The notes: generated by a model from the letters alone, not told the origin. A DNA stretch of 64,000 bases from Bacteroidia bacterium (GCA_021740825.1 JAIOZA010000001.1:124001-188000), one strand, 5' to 3'. Numbered from the stretch's first letter, positions 1,322 through 11,137 are shown. A program made the numbers and translations.

Positions 1322-2980
1322 ATGGGAGGCGGTAAAGAAACACCAAGGCAAAAAATGATAGGTATGATGTACCTAGTACTCACGGCGCTTTTGGCAATGA
1401 ATATATCAAAACAAGTACTTAAAGGATACATCGCTGTAAATGAGAGTATGGAGGCATCCAAGGAAAATTTAAAAGAAAACAACAACCGTATACTTGAAGC
1501 TTTTAAAGCTTCGATAGATGGCAATGCTGGAGCTAAACCCTATTACGATCAAGTATTAATTACTCGAAAGAGTATTCAGGAAACTTTTGACTATGTTGAT
1601 AATTTAAAAGCGGAAGTTGCAAAGGTAACAGAGGGTTATAAGGATGTAAAAGGAGATACCTTGAATTTGAAGCATATGGAAAAAATGTCCGATTATGATT
1701 TGGCTACTAATATATTAGTAGGTAGTGATGCTGCAAAACCAAGAGATAAAAGCGAAAAATGGTCTGCCGCTGAATTAAGAGATAAATTAAATAAGTTGAG
1801 CGACAAACTAATTGCTCAGATAGATAACATGCAAAAAACGGATGGAGTGCATCTTGTAAAGGAAGATTACGAAACTATTAAGAAAAAGTTTTTGTCATTT
1901 AAACCTGTTGATCCAAAGGAACAAGAAGAAGGGATAAAATTGTCTTGGGAAACAGCAAATTTTTATCATTTGCCTGAAGCGGCAATTATTACTACTTTAA
2001 ATAAAACGCAAGCAGACTTAAGAAATTTAGAAGCTGAAATTATTCAAACATTTTCAGGAGCAAGTGGTAAATTAGCTATTAAATTTGATGCTATAAAAGC
2101 AAGAGTTGTTGCACCTTCCGCATATATTCAAGCTGGACAGCCTTATGAGGCAGATATTTTCTTAGCAGCATCATCATCTAAATTAGGTGCAGGTGACATG
2201 GAAATTATGATTGGTGTTGACTCAGCCGCTGCGGCTGGCGGCGCTAAGGGGACTTTAGTGCCTTTAGTTTCTGGTGAGGGTAAATATTCCGTTGGTACAG
2301 GTGGTCAAGGTGAACAGACTTATAAAGGCGTAATAAAATATAAGACCCCGGAAGGAACCTTTAAATATTATCCTTTTGAGAAAACCTATATGGTTGCAGC
2401 GCCTTCTGTAGCAGTATCAGCTGAACAAATGAAAGTGTTTTATGTTGGTGTTACAAATCCAATCTTAGTTTCTGCTGCAGGAATTTCACCTTCAGAATTA
2501 ATTGTTTCTGCCAATGGAGGTGGTGCTAAATTAAATTCTGCAGGAGGAGGTAAGTTTGATGGTACTTTTACAACACCAGGTACTTGTACTATAAGTGTTT
2601 CTGCTAAAACTAAAGATGGTGTTAAACCTCAGGGTACGTCTGTATTTAAAGTTAAGCCTTTGCCAAAACCAGAACTTAGGTTAGCAGGTAAATTTTCACC
2701 AGCAACACTTACAAAAAATGAGTTATCAAACTTAGCAGGTCTTGCTGCTGGTGCTAATGGATTTGAATTTCAAGCCAACTTTGTAGTATTAAAATATGAA
2801 GTTACGGGTAAAGTGAAGGGGAAGTCACTAATCGGTGAAGGCACTGGAAATAATTTAGCAGGGGAGGGATTAAATATCGTGCGTAATGCTGATAAAGGTT
2901 CAAGTTTATTTATTGATGTAACCGTTAAGGGACCTGATGGCAGATCAAATACTGTAACTCACAAGTTAAAAGTGAATTAA
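1322..2980 (+). CDS. gldM: GldM, T9SS/gliding motor rotor protein
   Basis: GldM is the second motor component. One N-terminal membrane helix sits in the GldL ring and a long periplasmic stalk transmits motion to the GldK/GldN ring. The start MGGGKETPRQKMIGMMYLVL is the conserved GldM opening, with the helix at about residues 12-30. The remaining roughly 520 residues contain an N-terminal helical domain followed by Ig-like beta domains (for example YKGVIKYKTPEGTFKYYPF near residue 345 and a C-terminal VTVKGPDGRSNTVTHKL). Length 552 aa is slightly above the usual 510-525. It is preceded by an A-rich leader after the gldL hairpin, and gldN follows after 21 nt. Confidence 0.95.
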   Translation: MGGGKETPRQKMIGMMYLVLTALLAMNISKQVLKGYIAVNESMEASKENLKENNNRILEAFKASIDGNAGAKPYYDQVLITRKSIQETFDYVDNLKAEVAKVTEGYKDVKGDTLNLKHMEKMSDYDLATNILVGSDAAKPRDKSEKWSAAELRDKLNKLSDKLIAQIDNMQKTDGVHLVKEDYETIKKKFLSFKPVDPKEQEEGIKLSWETANFYHLPEAAIITTLNKTQADLRNLEAEIIQTFSGASGKLAIKFDAIKARVVAPSAYIQAGQPYEADIFLAASSSKLGAGDMEIMIGVDSAAAAGGAKGTLVPLVSGEGKYSVGTGGQGEQTYKGVIKYKTPEGTFKYYPFEKTYMVAAPSVAVSAEQMKVFYVGVTNPILVSAAGISPSELIVSANGGGAKLNSAGGGKFDGTFTTPGTCTISVSAKTKDGVKPQGTSVFKVKPLPKPELRLAGKFSPATLTKNELSNLAGLAAGANGFEFQANFVVLKYEVTGKVKGKSLIGEGTGNNLAGEGLNIVRNADKGSSLFIDVTVKGPDGRSNTVTHKLKVN

Positions 2981-3001
2981 TAATTTTAATAACTAAATAT
3001 C

Positions 3002-3865
3002 ATGAATGTTTTAAGAATTTGTTTTGCTACGGTTTTTGGATTATTTTCGTTAGCAACCTATGCACAACCTGGAGTTTTTCAACCCCAGCCCGGTGATTAT
3101 AGAGATGGTGTTTACGATAAAGAAAATGCCAACAATAGACGTTTTATTCCTTATACTCATCTGCGTGAAGGAGATGTGACTTGGGAAAAACGAGTTTGGA
3201 GAAAGTTAGATATGCGTGAAAAGCAAAATCAACAACTATATTACCCTGAGCTGTATGTTAGTGGCAGAACTTCATTGATGCAAGTACTTTTAAAGCATAT
3301 TTTAACTAATGAAATTATTGCATTTAAAAACGAGGAGTTTATTGACTATTACGAATTATCAGAAGTAAGAAACAAAATGGTTATTCAGGGCGATTCAACA
3401 GATGTAGAAACAATGTTACCAGATGGTAGTTCTAGTTTTGAAAGAAAACCTGGTTTAAAAGATTCAACTTGGCTATTCGAAAAATTTATTGAATTAGATA
3501 TTAAGGAAGATTGGTTTTTTGATAAACAAAAATCAACCCTAGAAGTTCGAATTTTGGGATTAGGAATTAACGCATTGAAACCAGGTAAGGAAGAAGCTGG
3601 TCCTATTACTCAATTTTGGGTATATTTTCCAAATTGTCGTAAATATTTTGCGCAATATGAAGTCTACAACTCTAAAAATGATTCGGAGCGCCGAACTTTT
3701 GAAGATATCTTTTGGAAACGACAATTTTCTAGTAGGGCTTATAAAGAAAGTAATGTTTATGATAGAGATGTTGAATTTTATAGTAAAGGCATAGACGCTC
3801 TTTTAGAATCTGATCGTATTAAAAATGATATTTTTAAATGGGAACATGATTTGTGGCACTTCTAA
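3002..3865 (+). CDS. gldN: GldN, T9SS periplasmic ring protein
   Basis: GldN (PorN in Porphyromonas) forms the periplasmic ring with GldK that touches the tip of GldM. A signal peptide of about 21 residues ends at ATYAQ. The mature part contains the family region RDGVYDKENANNRRFIPYTH and the later segments IDYYELSEVRNKMVIQGDST, FIELDIKEDWFFDKQKS and RRTFEDIFWKRQF, all typical of GldN. Length 287 aa is normal. It is the last gene of the gldKLMN run, 21 nt after gldM, and a strong terminator follows 18 nt after its stop, so the next cassette is probably transcribed separately. Confidence 0.95.
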   Translation: MNVLRICFATVFGLFSLATYAQPGVFQPQPGDYRDGVYDKENANNRRFIPYTHLREGDVTWEKRVWRKLDMREKQNQQLYYPELYVSGRTSLMQVLLKHILTNEIIAFKNEEFIDYYELSEVRNKMVIQGDSTDVETMLPDGSSSFERKPGLKDSTWLFEKFIELDIKEDWFFDKQKSTLEVRILGLGINALKPGKEEAGPITQFWVYFPNCRKYFAQYEVYNSKNDSERRTFEDIFWKRQFSSRAYKESNVYDRDVEFYSKGIDALLESDRIKNDIFKWEHDLWHF

Positions 3866-3883: not shown

Positions 3884-3918
3884 AAAAAAACCTTCTGCTG
3901 TTTAGTAGGAGGTTTTTT
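3884..3918 (+). terminator. Rho-independent terminator after gldN
   Basis: AACCTtCTgCT and AGtAGgAGGTT arms enclose a GTTT loop, flanked by an A-run on the left and TTTTTT on the right. It lies directly after gldN and separates the motor operon from the TIR/nSTAND cassette. Confidence 0.85.
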
Positions 3919-3986: not shown

Positions 3987-4859
3987 ATGTCTGGAATTTA
4001 TTTAGCTTTTACAACTAATCAACATGATGATAAACGTCATGACTTGTTTAACACTTTATTAAAAGCTAATTTTCAGGTATATCCTTCAAATTTAGAATAT
4101 GATAACGGATTCTTTTCTCATATTACGGAAGAGATAAATTCCGCATCTTGCTCTGTTCATATTTTTGGATTGGACTACGGAAGTCTTTTGGAAGGTCAGT
4201 CAATTTCTTTAGCACACTATCAGTATAACGTTGCGCTAAATAAATTAAAGGAAAATAGTAGTTATAAAATTTTTGTTTGGTTTCCATATTCCATCAACGA
4301 TATAAAAGATGAATTGCAACTAAAATTTATTTCGGATATACGAAATAATATAACTCATGGTATTAATTTTAGTAATACAAGCTCTGCAATTCAATTAGTT
4401 GATGACTTGCGCACCAGCGTAAAAGTTGAATCTAAGCAAGAGTTTGATATTAAAGATACAGATGTGTTTTTAGTATATAATCAATTGGATGATTATGATG
4501 CAAATGATGTGGCTGAAATGCTCAGCGATATTATTCCAATTGAAAAATTAAATATTGTGCAAGATAGCGATATGGACTATTCTGAATTTTGCGCACAGCA
4601 AATTGGTAAAAGTAAATTAGCTGTTATTTATTTTAAAGAATCTGCTGACTGGGCTTTACCATTTACTCAACAAATTTGGAAAAAAATAGGTGGCGCGTCC
4701 TCGCATACCCCAATATTGTTAATTGGCGACGAAGATCCCGAAACTAATACCAATAAAAAATTTAAAGCACCAAAAGTAGTTTCGCTAATTGTTGCAGGAG
4801 AATTAATTCCTCTTGAAATAAAAGTACAATACGATAAAATAATTGAAGCAATAGGCTAA
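3987..4859 (+). CDS. Tandem TIR-like protein of an nSTAND1 cassette
   Basis: Two TIR-like halves are visible. The first, about residues 1-150, carries the pattern SVHIFGLDYGSLLEGQSISL, then HYQYNVAL and KIFVWFPYSI, which resembles the DUF4062/TIR-like domains that precede or pair with nSTAND ATPases. The second, about 155-290, starts DTDVFLVYNQLDDYDANDV and continues with SKLAVIYFKESADWALPF and a GGASSHTPILLI strand. I do not see a convincing catalytic glutamate of a NADase TIR, so an adaptor or sensor role is as likely as an enzyme. There is no signal peptide. It lies 10 nt before the nSTAND1 gene and is surely co-transcribed with it. Domain calls rest on pattern recognition only. Confidence 0.65.
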   Translation: MSGIYLAFTTNQHDDKRHDLFNTLLKANFQVYPSNLEYDNGFFSHITEEINSASCSVHIFGLDYGSLLEGQSISLAHYQYNVALNKLKENSSYKIFVWFPYSINDIKDELQLKFISDIRNNITHGINFSNTSSAIQLVDDLRTSVKVESKQEFDIKDTDVFLVYNQLDDYDANDVAEMLSDIIPIEKLNIVQDSDMDYSEFCAQQIGKSKLAVIYFKESADWALPFTQQIWKKIGGASSHTPILLIGDEDPETNTNKKFKAPKVVSLIVAGELIPLEIKVQYDKIIEAIG

Positions 4860-4869
4860 TATCAAATTT

Positions 4870-7800
4870 ATGCAAGAACAACTTATTTGTCCTTACCCAG
4901 GTTTACGTCCATTTAACGAAGACGAGTCTATTTTCTTTAAGGGAAGAGATGAACATATTGAACAAATTGTTAAGCAGCTAGAAGCAAAAAAATTCTTAAT
5001 GCTTACCGGTGCATCAGGCGATGGAAAATCTTCATTGATATATGCCGGCGTTATCCCAAATGCAAGAGCAGGTTTTTTTAAAGCTAAATTTAATAATTGG
5101 ATTGTTGCTGATTTTAGACCAGAGCGTGAACCGATTACTAATATGGCAACTGCTATTAGCGAACAATTAAAAATAAATGATGTTTCGCGCATTGAGAAAG
5201 AATTGAGTTATGGATTTTCTTCCTTAATAGATATTTATAAATCATCACCATACTGGGTTGATCAGCAAAGCGAAACCTTTACACAATTAACTCTTGACGA
5301 ACAAAAAAAAGGAAAACGAAAAGGTGCTAACTTATTAATTTTAGTAGATCAGTTTGAAGAATTTTTTACAAATCCAGAAAACTATCATAACGGCAAGTGT
5401 TCCATTGAATCACAAGCAGTCATCAATTCTTTATTAGAAACAACACGCTTAGCAATTGAGCAAGATGTGCCCATATATATTGTTTGCACCATGCGAAGCG
5501 ATTATATTGGTCAGTGCGCCTCATTTAGAGGATTGCCTGAATACATTGGCTATAGCCAGTTTTTTGTGCCGCGATTAAAACGAAAAGAAATTTATCAGGT
5601 TATTGAAGAGCCAGCACAACTCAACGGAAATAAAATTTCTAAGCGTTTAGTTGAAATGCTGATTAATGAAATGAATGACGGTATTGATCAATTACCAGTA
5701 TTACAGCATTCATTAAATCAGATTTGGCAAAAGGCAGATAGCGGTCAAGTGGAAATGGATATTATTCATTTTGCTAAAATAAACGGAATTCCAAAAAATC
5801 AATTAACAGAAAAAGATAGAATTGAATTTGAAACTTGGTTTAAGGCAATTCCTGATTTTAAAAAAGAATTTTTTACGCATTCTTCGTTAGGTGATGTGTT
5901 AGATGCACACGCTAATGAGTTATTTGAAACAGCCAACAGCTTTTCGGAAACCATTACAGACCATGACGCTAAGTTAATAGTTGAAACAGCCTTTAAATGC
6001 TTAACCAAAATTGATGAAGCACGTGCTGTGCGTAACCGCATGACTTTGGAGGAAGTTACCCAAATAATTAATCAGCCACATATTACAACCTCTATTGTTG
6101 CGCAAGTATTATATGTGTTTAGAGTGCAAGGAAATACATTTTTAAAACCATTTATTTTTGATGTCACTGCCGAAGCAAAAGAATTATCTGGTAATACTGT
6201 GTTAGATATTACTCACGAAAGTTTAATACGTAATTGGAAAAAATTAACCGATTGGGCCAAGGACGAATATGATAATTTACTAACCTGGCAAGACTTTAAT
6301 AAACAATTACAGCGTTGGACTGATAGTAATAAATCATCCGATTATTTATTGCCAATTGGGCCACTTACTTTTTTTGAAAACTGGTTTAACACTGCTAAAC
6401 CAAATAAATATTGGTTAGCCCGCTACGATCAAAGAGAAGTAGATCAAGAAAAAAAGTTACAAGATGCTGAAATTATCTTAAACAATGCCAAACAATTTAT
6501 TAAACGCAGCGCACGCCGTTTATTTATAAACCGTACCGTTATTAAATACGGAGCTGATAAAATTATTGCTGTATTTGGTATTTTATTAATGGTATTTGGT
6601 TGCACTTATTTTTATTTTGATTTCAGAAAAAAACAGAATGATTATGTGATAATAGATTTACAAGAAAAAAGCAAAGAGCTTTTAAAATCTAAATATATAA
6701 GCAATAAGGAAAAAGCAGATTATATTTTAAAATCTGAAATGCTAAATACAGGCTCGTATGAATCTTTATTAAATTTATTTGAAAGCGATTCGGTAAAGAA
6801 TGAAATTGTGCAAGAAATGCTAATTAAATGTTTACAATTTGAAAAAAATGAAGAGGAAAATGAGCCTGAAAATCCTCTAATTTCTATTTTTATGGAAAAA
6901 CAAATTGATTATATAAATCGAAATCGTGCTTTTTCTGATAATAAAAAATATGTGCATGAAATTAATAATATTAATCTAGTAGTATATTCCCAAATTATTT
7001 TAAGAGACAATAACTACAAATTATCACACAAAAAAATAAATAGTAAATACAAGCTTTTTTGTAATAATGCAAAAGAGTCTTTCAAGAAATTGTTACTTGA
7101 CTCAGCTTTATTGAGAGGCACAGATATTAATCAGTTTAATAAATTACTTCAAATTGTTCCTGAATTGGTTAATTATGATAAAAATGAAATAGCTATTTTT
7201 ATTGAAAAGTTGACTCCATTCAATTCTAATTCAAATAGTTTATTTAAAATTTTATATCCAAAAAGTAAATCTGTTCAAGCTTTTTACAATGAAAAAATTA
7301 CCCATAATTCCGGTTATTTTCAAATTGCTAATTTGTATGCTTTAGTATCTGATTTTGACAATTTAAATAGAGCTTTTGATTCTATAGTTTCAAATAACAC
7401 AAACTTTTTAACTATTTCTCGTGGAGGTTATTCATATAACAGAATTCTTTATAGTTTGCTACTTTCAAATTCATTGTGTTCTGAAAAAGGAATAGAATTT
7501 ATGAAAAATATTGAATTAAAAATTACAAACAAAAAATTATTTACAATTGAACAATTATTAGCAGATAAAATTTCCTCAAACTCAAATAATGTTGGTCCTT
7601 ATTCTTTATCAAATATATTTAACAAGGAAGTTGATGCATTTAAATTCTCAGGTATAATTGATAAAATTACCGCTAAACAAAGAATTGATTATATTGATTT
7701 TGTCATTTCAAAAACAATTGAAGATTCTAAATTAGAAGCAAATTCCAAAAATTTCATAATTGCATTACTGCTTAAAACAAAGGCGAAATGTTATAATTTG

Positions 7801-8952
7801 AGTAATAATGTTGATTATCTTAAAATAGATGAGGCGCTAAATTTAGCTTATCAGTATTATGGTAAAATCAATGATGCTTATATAAATAGTGAAATCAATA
7901 TTGGAGGTGAAAATGGCGGATTAAAATCAATTAAAAGATCAGAATTATTTTTATACCCTGGAAATATTGAATTAACTGATTATTATAACACTTTTAACGT
8001 TTATTATTCAGGTTATGATAAAAGTTACTTGATAAATTTTATTTCAAAAAATAAATCTATTCTCGATAAATTTTTTCTCAATAATAATGGTATTGAAATA
8101 TTGAATCGATTTATGAAGAATTACTCGAGCGTTGTTCTTAATAATGCAAATAAATCTAATCGCTATAATTTTGATTTTATAGAGACTCTTAATAAATCAA
8201 ATTTCAAAAAAGATTTGTTTGATAAAGATTATGCCAATTGCCTATTAGGATTGTATTACCATAAAAAAGGTAATGAAGTTAAATCAAAAGAATATTTCAA
8301 TAAGGTCATTATGAATAAAGTTTTTTCAAAAGAAACGTTGAATGGTGAAGATAAATGGACATATACTGAATTAGCAGAGGAATGTGCTTTATATTATGCA
8401 ACAAGGTCTTTTAGAGATACATCTGCCGCCAACACAAATAAATTAAAATTTTATTCAACTCTTAGTAATTTACCTTTTGAGTATTTAAAAAGAAATACTA
8501 TTATTAAAACTATTGATAGTTTGATGAGTAGAAACATGGATCAATTTGCAATAGAGTTGACAGATACTTTATTGAATGTTTATATTAACAAAAAACCAAA
8601 ATTCGGAAATAGTTTTTTTAAAATATTGGGCAGATATGCTACCACAAATTCTAGCAGGATTGCGATGAATTTATTAAAGGATAAAACAGATAAAACTAAA
8701 CCTTCTTGTCTTAATTTCTTTATTAATGGATTATTGCAAACTAATAGATATTACGAGGCAACTACTTTTATACCGGATTATGTTTCATCTTCAAATCAAT
8801 TAAAATTTTATACATCTTTTATTAAAAATGAAGCACGAAAAAAAACAAAAAATTATAAAGGTTGGGGTAATCTTGATGAGGAAAATAATTGGACAGATGA
8901 ACCTTTTGAAAGTAGTGATTCAGAGCGTGAAGGTAGTTTTTATTTTTTTTAA
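4870..8952 (+). CDS. Membrane-anchored nSTAND1 NTPase with long helical C-terminus
   Basis: This is a STAND-class P-loop NTPase of the nSTAND1 type. The opening CPYPGLRPFNEDESIFFKGR is the diagnostic N-terminal motif. Walker A is GASGDGKSS (about residues 47-55) and Walker B is LILVDQFEEFF (about 155-165). A winged-helix region with DITHESLIRNWKKL near 450 closes the STAND core. A membrane helix lies near 563-582 (IIAVFGILLMVFG). The last 780 residues are Asn/Lys-rich, probably alpha-helical repeats, and I recognise no family in them. Usual nSTAND1 proteins have WD40 or TPR sensors there. Members of this class act as signal-gated switches in conflict and signalling systems. The gene sits between the TIR-like gene (10 nt) and the membrane protein (21 nt). 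Confidence 0.8.
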   Translation: MQEQLICPYPGLRPFNEDESIFFKGRDEHIEQIVKQLEAKKFLMLTGASGDGKSSLIYAGVIPNARAGFFKAKFNNWIVADFRPEREPITNMATAISEQLKINDVSRIEKELSYGFSSLIDIYKSSPYWVDQQSETFTQLTLDEQKKGKRKGANLLILVDQFEEFFTNPENYHNGKCSIESQAVINSLLETTRLAIEQDVPIYIVCTMRSDYIGQCASFRGLPEYIGYSQFFVPRLKRKEIYQVIEEPAQLNGNKISKRLVEMLINEMNDGIDQLPVLQHSLNQIWQKADSGQVEMDIIHFAKINGIPKNQLTEKDRIEFETWFKAIPDFKKEFFTHSSLGDVLDAHANELFETANSFSETITDHDAKLIVETAFKCLTKIDEARAVRNRMTLEEVTQIINQPHITTSIVAQVLYVFRVQGNTFLKPFIFDVTAEAKELSGNTVLDITHESLIRNWKKLTDWAKDEYDNLLTWQDFNKQLQRWTDSNKSSDYLLPIGPLTFFENWFNTAKPNKYWLARYDQREVDQEKKLQDAEIILNNAKQFIKRSARRLFINRTVIKYGADKIIAVFGILLMVFGCTYFYFDFRKKQNDYVIIDLQEKSKELLKSKYISNKEKADYILKSEMLNTGSYESLLNLFESDSVKNEIVQEMLIKCLQFEKNEEENEPENPLISIFMEKQIDYINRNRAFSDNKKYVHEINNINLVVYSQIILRDNNYKLSHKKINSKYKLFCNNAKESFKKLLLDSALLRGTDINQFNKLLQIVPELVNYDKNEIAIFIEKLTPFNSNSNSLFKILYPKSKSVQAFYNEKITHNSGYFQIANLYALVSDFDNLNRAFDSIVSNNTNFLTISRGGYSYNRILYSLLLSNSLCSEKGIEFMKNIELKITNKKLFTIEQLLADKISSNSNNVGPYSLSNIFNKEVDAFKFSGIIDKITAKQRIDYIDFVISKTIEDSKLEANSKNFIIALLLKTKAKCYNLSNNVDYLKIDEALNLAYQYYGKINDAYINSEINIGGENGGLKSIKRSELFLYPGNIELTDYYNTFNVYYSGYDKSYLINFISKNKSILDKFFLNNNGIEILNRFMKNYSSVVLNNANKSNRYNFDFIETLNKSNFKKDLFDKDYANCLLGLYYHKKGNEVKSKEYFNKVIMNKVFSKETLNGEDKWTYTELAEECALYYATRSFRDTSAANTNKLKFYSTLSNLPFEYLKRNTIIKTIDSLMSRNMDQFAIELTDTLLNVYINKKPKFGNSFFKILGRYATTNSSRIAMNLLKDKTDKTKPSCLNFFINGLLQTNRYYEATTFIPDYVSSSNQLKFYTSFIKNEARKKTKNYKGWGNLDEENNWTDEPFESSDSEREGSFYFF

Positions 8953-8973
8953 TTCCTAAGTAGTTTATTTATT

Positions 8974-9942
8974 ATGAAACCAATAACACGTATACGAATT
9001 GTTTTATTTGCACTAATGATTTTTGGATCATTTGCAAATTTTGCTTTAAATGAGTGGGGTATTACATTAATTATTTGGTGTGAGATTTTAATGGCCGCAT
9101 CATTTTTAGGAGAAATAATAGCTTCTATAATTAAAAATATAAAAATAAACTACAGAAAAAAACTAAGCATCCTCATGCTGTCATTAATATGTGCAATATT
9201 GTTCTTTGTTTTTTTAATAACCACACTGGTATTAATAAGCAAAGAAGTTTCGGATATATTCCCAAAAATGTTGGGTAGCTCATTCTTAGGTTTAATTTTA
9301 ATCATAATTATAGAAGCTTTATATGATTTTTTCAAAAAAATAGAAAACCAAGGCAATTATGAATCATTTTTCTTATTTATTTTGTTTTTAGCTTTAATTT
9401 TTAAAAATAATTCTTGGCCAGGAACAGATATCATGTTTGTTTTCAGTATTTTATTTTTAGTACCCTACTTTATTACCACCACCTTTAAATTTTTTAAAGA
9501 AAATTATAAATCAGGTAAAGCATTAGTTATTGTTTTAACCATTGGCAGTATTGCTACAGTTCTTTTAGGTTTAACTTTTATGATGAAAACAATGCATTGG
9601 CCTTTTGCAGATACTTTCTTTTATATTGCTACAATAGTTACTTTGATTATGATTGGCGGTGCTTTAAAATGGAAATATATTTTTAACGGCACTAAAATAA
9701 ATATATTGCAAGGTTTACGACTTTTTAAAACCAATATTATATTATTATTTTTTATGCTATTTGTATTTATGAGTTATAAATATTTTGCTAATGTAAAATT
9801 AGCTCCTGATTTTTATTCTGCAGATTATCCCGAAAGTTATTACAATTACAGGAATATTAATAAATGGGATAAAGCAATCGAAATAAGAGATGCTTATGGT
9901 AATTTTATTCAGAAAGCTGAAGAAAATGGTTTTATAAAATAA
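8974..9942 (+). CDS. Polytopic membrane protein with two GldL-like hairpin motifs
   Basis: 322 aa with seven or eight predicted membrane helices and no signal peptide. Two segments copy the GldL helix-loop-helix signature: FKNNSWPGTD at about residues 143-152 and MKTMHWPFAD at about 204-213, against FKIQHWPGSD in GldL of this window. The Lys is kept in both and the His in the second, but the helix-2 glutamate of GldL is replaced (Leu and Thr), so it is unlikely to be a proton-driven motor itself. A weaker third copy may lie near residues 20-40 (ALNEWG). A soluble tail follows residue 272. It lies 21 nt after the nSTAND1 gene, and its stop is one base before the next start codon. Function unknown. 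Confidence 0.75.
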   Translation: MKPITRIRIVLFALMIFGSFANFALNEWGITLIIWCEILMAASFLGEIIASIIKNIKINYRKKLSILMLSLICAILFFVFLITTLVLISKEVSDIFPKMLGSSFLGLILIIIIEALYDFFKKIENQGNYESFFLFILFLALIFKNNSWPGTDIMFVFSILFLVPYFITTTFKFFKENYKSGKALVIVLTIGSIATVLLGLTFMMKTMHWPFADTFFYIATIVTLIMIGGALKWKYIFNGTKINILQGLRLFKTNIILLFFMLFVFMSYKYFANVKLAPDFYSADYPESYYNYRNINKWDKAIEIRDAYGNFIQKAEENGFIK

Positions 9943-9943
9943 G

Positions 9944-11137
9944 TTGGTGAGTACTACTATTTTCATACTAATTTCATTTTTATTAATTGTGGTTGCCGCT
10001 ATTTGCGTCTATTATTTTAGTAGAGCAAAATATAATTCCACAATCGATTCTCTCATTACAGAAAAAAACAGTCTTGAAAATTCCTTAAATGAATTAAAAT
10101 TATCAATGCCTTCTCTTCAGGATAGCGAGCAAGCCGCGCTTGAAAAGAAAAAAATGGAAGAAAAAAATCGTAAGCTTTGGGCCATGAGCGAAACGGTGCA
10201 TAAAGAACGAAAAAAAGTTGATGAACAAAACGAAATACTAGTCACTGAAAAAGAAAAACTGGAAGTTGATAAAAAAAAGTTGGATGAAAAAGTTAAAAAA
10301 TTGTGGGCGCAAAGTGTTTCTATTCATAAAGAAAAAGAACGCATTAATGAGTTAAAACTTGAAATAGAACACAAGCATCAAGAGATATTAGATAGTGTAA
10401 ATTACGCTAAACGTATACAGCGCGCTTTACTAGCAAGTAAAAAGATGTTGAATGATTATTTGCCAGAGCATTTTGTTTTGTTTCAACCAAAAGACATTGT
10501 AAGCGGTGATTTTTATTGGGCAAGTGCCTTGCGTAATAATCAATTTTCGGTTATCGCAGCCGATAGTACTGGTCATGGTGTGCCTGGTGCTATTATGAGT
10601 ATTTTAAATATTTCATGTTTAAGCGAAGCAATCAATGCTCAACATTTATTATTACCAAACCAAATTTTAGATTATACGCGCCAACGTATTATGGAACACA
10701 TGGCCAATGATGGAAGTGAAGAAGGTGGTAAAGATGGAATGGATGCTGTGATTTGTAATTTTGATTTCACTAGCAATGTACTACAATTTGCCGCAGCTAA
10801 TAATCCATTATGGGTTTTTCGTAATAACGAACTGCTTGAATTCAAACCTGATAAAATGCCTATTGGTAAGGCAATGGGAGAAATTAAACCATTTACATTA
10901 CAAGAAATTCAATTACAAAAAAATGACTTGGTAATTATGTTAACAGATGGTTATGCGGATCAATTTGGTGGTGAAAAAGGAAAAAAATTCATGTACAAGC
11001 CATTAAAAGAATTAATTCTGTCAATTAGTAACGCTTCATTATTGGATATAAAACAAGAATTGTACACAACCTTCGAAAACTGGAAAGGAACTGCTGAACA
11101 AGTTGATGATGTTTTAATAATTGGCGTAAGAATTTAA
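9944..11137 (+). CDS. SpoIIE-family PP2C protein phosphatase, membrane anchored
   Basis: The architecture is one N-terminal membrane helix (about residues 5-25), a long coiled coil (about 30-150) and a C-terminal SpoIIE-type PP2C serine phosphatase. Metal-binding motifs are intact: VSGDFYWA, AADSTGHGVPGA, LTDGYADQFGG and VDDVLIIG. The coiled coil contains a duplicated segment, RKLWAMSETVHKERKKVDE and KKLWAQSVSIHKEKERINE. The start is TTG at 9944 or GTG at 9947. No ATG fits before the helix. Only one base separates it from the upstream stop, which indicates translational coupling to the membrane protein. No anti-anti-sigma factor or kinase gene lies nearby, so the substrate is unknown. Confidence 0.88.
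   Translation: MVSTTIFILISFLLIVVAAICVYYFSRAKYNSTIDSLITEKNSLENSLNELKLSMPSLQDSEQAALEKKKMEEKNRKLWAMSETVHKERKKVDEQNEILVTEKEKLEVDKKKLDEKVKKLWAQSVSIHKEKERINELKLEIEHKHQEILDSVNYAKRIQRALLASKKMLNDYLPEHFVLFQPKDIVSGDFYWASALRNNQFSVIAADSTGHGVPGAIMSILNISCLSEAINAQHLLLPNQILDYTRQRIMEHMANDGSEEGGKDGMDAVICNFDFTSNVLQFAAANNPLWVFRNNELLEFKPDKMPIGKAMGEIKPFTLQEIQLQKNDLVIMLTDGYADQFGGEKGKKFMYKPLKELILSISNASLLDIKQELYTTFENWKGTAEQVDDVLIIGVRI

Follow-up and report, generated by a model that had tools for sequence, protein, structure and literature searches.

The window analysed here, a stretch of 64,000 nucleotides (nt) from a Bacteroidia bacterium (GCA_021740825.1 JAIOZA010000001.1:124001-188000), carries four adjoining genes, tirA, nSTAND1, mem3 and SpoIIE, behind gldN of the type IX secretion system (T9SS). 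Sequence comparison indicates that they form one conserved, modular membrane signalling cassette. The order nSTAND1-mem3-SpoIIE is kept in 10 Bacteroidota genomes from at least four families, showing that the cassette is not a chance arrangement, and tirA stands contiguously in front of nSTAND1 in 6 of the 10; in the other four (G302, G265, G138 and G034) a contig break hides or separates tirA, that end lying on another contig or past the break. The original prediction of a single membrane signalling unit is thereby borne out, and the unit recurs across genomes mostly without gldKLMN. In the reading that we favour, and to which we give about an even chance of being correct, the cassette encodes a horizontally mobile, modular transmembrane receptor of the STAND class (signal transduction ATPases with numerous domains), similar to nucleotide-binding leucine-rich repeat (NLR) receptors, with a PP2C phosphatase as its output. 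As had been anticipated, a search of the literature, most subscription journals being outside its coverage, turned up no account of a system with the same make-up.

All four open reading frames (ORFs) lie on the + strand with gaps of 10, 21 and 1 nt, and their coordinates, together with those of a hairpin behind gldN, confirm the predicted layout (Table 1). The identity of the upstream gldL, gldM and gldN genes was confirmed by Pfam.

Table 1 Coordinates of the cassette genes and of features within and next to them, counted from the first nucleotide of the window (aa, amino acids; AF2, AlphaFold2; TM, transmembrane helix).
Feature	Position	Strand	Basis
tirA (tandem TIR/Rossmann-like adaptor, DUF4062 type, 290 aa)	3987-4859	+	DUF4062 profile comparison, AF2 model, fusions to nSTAND1
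nSTAND1 NTPase (1360 aa; one TM, sensor at the C-terminus)	4870-8952	+	Pfam, Walker motifs
mem3 (multipass membrane protein, two FKxxHWPG GldL_N-type hairpins, 322 aa)	8974-9942	+	HHalign to GldL N-terminus; conserved between nSTAND1 and SpoIIE
SpoIIE/PP2C phosphatase (membrane-anchored, coiled-coil, 397 aa, TTG start)	9944-11137	+	Pfam, Asp motifs, TM 4-22
Codon of Gln79 in tirA, at the invariant (catalytic) Glu position of DUF4062	4221-4223	+	Alignment to DUF4062
nSTAND1 transmembrane helix (about residues 557-583), positive side N-terminal	6538-6618	+	Hydropathy, charge bias; equivalent location in relatives
Predicted periplasmic alpha-solenoid sensor (nSTAND1 residues 596-1360)	6655-8949	+	AF2 and low identity between cassettes
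Terminator-like hairpin separating gldN from the cassette	3885-3918	+	15-bp stem plus T tract

The cassettes occur in several forms, for which family codes and the name Saprospirae-type serve as working labels. Type A, the form in the window, consists of tirA, an nSTAND1 with an alpha-solenoid, mem3 and SpoIIE, and is contiguous in the window, G005/L027, L032 (=G452), L070 (G166), L031 and G255; the nSTAND1/mem3 interval is disrupted in L031, and the G255 cassette spans two contigs overlapping by 141 nt. Type B comprises, according to Pfam, a WD40-bearing nSTAND1, a secreted protein of ~355 aa, a PKD_6/Kelch protein, sometimes T9SS-sorted proteins, tirA and SpoIIE (L033, L035, L037, L071, L076, L078 and L080). 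The window's own genome also carries a type B cassette (L021/L079, on contigs C41 and C38, which overlap by 36 nt), and the SpoIIE at its end is 72% identical to that of the window. In type C, found in 12 further genomes, tirA is fused to nSTAND1 in a solitary protein of about 1500 aa, and Pfam confirmed WD40 repeats in one such fusion (L081). The tirA-NTPase pair, fused in these other lineages, is the core of the cassette. SpoIIE is present in 19 of about 31 unfused loci and neighbours the fusion in 0 of the 12 type C genomes, which serve as a control, the background in the window's own genome being one SpoIIE per 173 kb (17 in the genome); these neighbour counts include related genomes and are not corrected for phylogeny. 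In the Saprospirae-type variant, tirA is preceded by an additional TIR_2 domain, and two nSTAND1 genes and mem3 are present. Some cassettes of this variant are adjoined by TPR-S/MAP3K_TRAF_bd and SLATT_1 proteins (L019:7263-8981, L209:15781-17307).

The predicted nSTAND1 NTPase with a membrane helix was confirmed by its Pfam match (E 1.2e-71, 242.8 bits against a cut-off of 27.1), by intact Walker A (GASGDGKS at 47) and Walker B (LILVDQFEE at 156) motifs and by one transmembrane helix. A single hydrophobic helix follows the NTPase (at about residues 560-600) throughout the core family, and because positive charges lie on its N-terminal side, the C-terminal part of the protein is predicted to be periplasmic. 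AF2 models this sensor with moderate confidence as a solenoid made up entirely of alpha-helices (predicted local distance difference test score, pLDDT, 74; predicted template modelling score 0.72), and a fold search with the model gave no match at E<=0.001.

TirA had been described as a tandem TIR-like protein, a description that holds for the fold. The AF2 model (pLDDT 85.5) contains two Rossmann-like domains, and residues 1-147 resemble DNPH1 and TIR domains (VIA-align Z about 13). HHalign comparison of both domains with local TIR_2 domains was not significant, the TIR likeness observed being one of fold, and the tirA profile matched no sequence in the PDB. The match to Pfam DUF4062 is weak and below the cut-off (E 4e-4); profile comparison of domain 1 with DUF4062 by HHalign gave a probability of 94% and an E-value of 9e-8, and Saprospirae-type relatives of TirA exceed the Pfam cut-off. 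DUF4062 proteins are NADases that require a conserved Glu and defend against phage (PMC13174449). In the alignment, Gln79 of TirA falls where DUF4062 proteins of Bacteroidota have their invariant Glu, and among 59 aligned TirA sequences this position is mostly Gln, with some His or other residues and no Glu (0/59). With the catalytic Glu replaced, we rejected TirA as a TIR NADase. NADase immunity is accordingly not supported.

The fourth gene encodes, as predicted, a membrane-anchored SpoIIE phosphatase, with a Pfam match of E 1.5e-18 (67.9 bits), conserved metal-ligand motifs (GDFYW, D-TGHG, DG and DD) and one N-terminal transmembrane helix. A possible partner is the switch protein SiaC, which is encoded in 19/19 cassette genomes tested. 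In G255/L038, 2 nt separate the SiaC gene from the tirA gene that follows it, and in L031 SiaC and SiaB come after SpoIIE; at a distance of about 4 kb, SiaC precedes tirA in G166 and follows SpoIIE in G247. We estimate the chance occurrence of SiaC within a 10-kb neighbourhood at about 0.01-0.03 per cassette, given 3-10 copies in a genome of roughly 4 Mb. The G005 insert also holds a SpoIIAA-like DUF7793 gene. These neighbours point to partner switching as a candidate output. In three genomes (L183, L184 and L031), a locus of SiaC, a lipoprotein-like gene of ~280 aa and a TerB-ABC transporter fusion (about 1020 aa) adjoins STAND cassettes.

Comparison of type A cassettes gave mean pairwise identities of 61% for the NTPase, 54% for tirA and 49-52% for the phosphatase, against 20% for the sensor and 25% for mem3. 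The parts predicted to be exposed, the sensor and mem3, change fast, while the cytosolic core does not. In the favoured reading of the cassette as a transmembrane STAND receptor, the periplasmic solenoid would sense an envelope signal or an intruder, with mem3 as its membrane partner; in sister cassettes a WD40 propeller, likewise periplasmic, would sense together with the secreted ~355-aa protein and the PKD/Kelch protein. The NTPase would oligomerise in an ATP-driven manner with TirA as a non-enzymatic assembly adaptor, and this assembly would bring together and activate the membrane-anchored PP2C. The phosphatase would then dephosphorylate a SiaC- or STAS-type switch protein, resetting cell physiology. 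We infer envelope sensing by a transmembrane STAND protein with PP2C output, and the output is probably regulatory or dormancy-like and not a direct NAD-depleting suicide.

Several observations weigh against this receptor model. The predicted periplasmic orientation of its sensor derives from hydropathy and charge. Several unfused cassettes, of the Saprospirae type and others, have no SpoIIE, which shows that the phosphatase is not obligatory. The phosphatase scores 145 bits against the NCBIfam SiaA equivalog, whose cut-off is 700, and most SpoIIEs tested from the window's genome score alike; we therefore rejected similarity as evidence of SiaA identity, and the link to SiaC rests on gene neighbourhood in four cassettes. 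In the window's genome, SiaB-SiaC lies far from the cassette and no GGDEF protein was found (the genome is 88% complete), which makes an output of the SiaD type unlikely; cyclic di-GMP was rejected as the output for want of a GGDEF match.

The position of the cassette was compared among related genomes. It stands behind gldN only in the window and in G005, both of one genus (2 of about 30 unfused loci), 11 other genomes of the same genus have no cassette after gldN, and in G003, G004, G007 and G009 gldN directly adjoins a UbiD-like gene, the one located after the cassette in G005. The T9SS adjacency is best described, from these junctions, as an insertion site, and we rejected co-function with the T9SS as the default inference from adjacency. 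Synonymous divergence (dS) between the window and G005 is 0.90 for gldL, 1.27 for gldM and 1.64 for gldN, compared with 0.19 for tirA, 0.18 for nSTAND1, 0.00 for mem3 and 0.01 for SpoIIE; the cassette was therefore exchanged far later than its neighbours diverged, that is, it moves horizontally. Amino-acid changes in nSTAND1 between the two genomes cluster at residues 901-1200 (43/74), with a nonsynonymous to synonymous ratio (dN/dS) below 1. On a Hymenobacter plasmid, a relative of tirA precedes a large ORF of 1440 aa. Three cassettes have toxin-antitoxin genes inserted in or next to them (L027:9681-9989, L234:3847-4428, L031:18077-18724), identified as ParE by Pfam and as MazF-like by eye. 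Upstream, at 1322-3865 of the window, gldM and gldN share 57% and 68% identity with their counterparts in a congener with which gldL shares 92%, and their dS is also higher; the motor genes may have recombined or evolved under diversification.

Immunity is a serious rival reading, albeit an unlikely one in our estimate: a conflict system directed against phages or other invaders, in which the STAND protein would sense a phage or foreign protein and TirA or the phosphatase would bring about abortive infection or dormancy. The distribution is patchy, with relatives by tirA profile in 38/395 genomes of the class, 11/87 of the order and 9/395 sampled from across the phylum, the weaker matches being distant relatives, and in only 2/20 genomes of the same genus. 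Recent horizontal transfer, the plasmid copy, the toxin-antitoxin genes, the fast-diverging sensor, the SLATT and TPR-S neighbours and the phage defence by DUF4062 proteins fit the same picture. However, the cassette proteins gave no credible PADLOC match, only coiled-coil or repeat matches, and no relatives were found in phage records or viral contigs. The loss of the catalytic Glu from TirA, the predicted placement of the sensor outside the cytosol and the lack of a nuclease, protease or pore in the window's cassette also speak against it.

It is improbable that the locus is a loose genomic cluster in which tirA and nSTAND1 are a functional pair and SpoIIE and mem3 are frequent passengers. 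The abundance of SpoIIE genes, the cassettes without them and the solitary fusions fit such a cluster. The constant gene order and short gaps seen in 10 genomes speak against it, as do the related SpoIIEs that end both cassettes of the window's genome. Divergence of tirA, NTPase and PP2C is also correlated (r 0.6-0.98), tirA distances tracking those of the NTPase and PP2C at r 0.92 and 0.98 (few pairs, not corrected for phylogeny).

The third gene bears on the least probable alternative, a monitor of the T9SS motor or of envelope energisation, in which mem3 or GldM-domain lipoproteins would join or imitate the GldLM/GldKN complex and signal its condition. Mem3 had been described as a polytopic protein with GldL-like motifs, and profile-profile comparison upheld the motifs, placing two GldL_N-type FKxxHWPG hairpins in mem3 (E 7e-8 and 1e-5); no Pfam family scored above cut-off for mem3 and neither GldL model (PF22827, TIGR03513) matched. 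GldL E49 is essential and strictly conserved (PMC8986121), and its position in mem3 is L/T in the window and L/T/N/I/F/M/C across nine mem3 proteins, never acidic; without an E49 equivalent, mem3 was rejected as a proton channel. Weaker matches to the mem3 profile, of FKxxHWPG proteins, are widespread (116/395 genomes). Bacteroidota widely encode multipass proteins in which FKxxHWPG hairpins are repeated (L237:6347-7501, L238:5113-6261), with no covering family apparent beyond partial GldL_N matches. Lipoproteins of GldM domains 2-4 are encoded within STAND cassettes or at their end, either between the genes for the GldL-like protein and the phosphatase or after the phosphatase gene (L070:5096-6463, L233:4320-4976, L185:11950-12579). 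The best argument for motor monitoring comes from G166 and G265, where GldM_3rd/4th lipoproteins are encoded between mem3 and SpoIIE; the hairpins, the gldKLMN adjacency in the window and G005, and the T9SS-sorted proteins of sister cassettes add to it. Most cassettes have no GldM-like genes, however, and with the adjacency confined to an insertion site in one genus, E49 replaced in all mem3 and mem3 resembling a large family, the suggestion that the cassette monitors the secretion motor is at most weakly supported. The cassette is probably unrelated to the adjoining motor.

The bacterial STAND immune proteins characterised so far detect their signals in the cytosol and act by way of fused effectors. 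Tentatively, the cassettes might represent a class of trans-envelope NLR-like receptors in Bacteroidota, with a fast-evolving periplasmic sensor, a partner-switch dephosphorylation output and a TIR-like pseudoenzyme adaptor, coupled in some hosts to the T9SS motor through GldL-like or GldM-like parts. If the receptor model is true, NLR-type recognition would be tied to regulation and not to suicide, through a sensor beyond the inner membrane and a phosphatase output that is reversible, the cassette would be a bacterial counterpart to the DUF4062-NACHT-WD40 layout of human TEP1/NWD1, and the role of a TIR-like domain without its catalytic residue in such a receptor would become testable.

Four known systems come near to parts of the cassette. 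Mem3 shares the FKxxHWPG transmembrane hairpin with GldL of the T9SS motor (PMC8986121), the hairpin occurring twice in mem3, and differs in having more membrane segments, no E49 equivalent and no match to GldL family models. Like the nSTAND1 conflict systems described previously (PMC8195603, PMC10907252), the cassette combines an NTPase, a variable C-terminal sensor and a TIR-family partner, whereas its sensor is predicted to be periplasmic and it has fixed mem3 and PP2C partners, unmentioned there. With the SiaABCD switch of Pseudomonas (PMC7647112) it shares a membrane-anchored SpoIIE-type PP2C, and SiaC and SiaB in the cassette genome, with SiaC near four cassettes; it differs in that no GGDEF protein was found in that genome and that STAND control would replace the SiaA sensor region. 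The DUF4062 NADases Swarozyc (KpSwz) and human TEP1/NWD1 (PMC13174449) have the same DUF4062-type TIR-like fold as TirA, and in TEP1/NWD1 DUF4062 stands beside a STAND-class NTPase with WD40, matching the fused tirA-nSTAND1-WD40 proteins. Unlike these proteins, the cassette has a replaced Glu, a second Rossmann-like domain, an NTPase with a membrane helix and a phosphatase partner.

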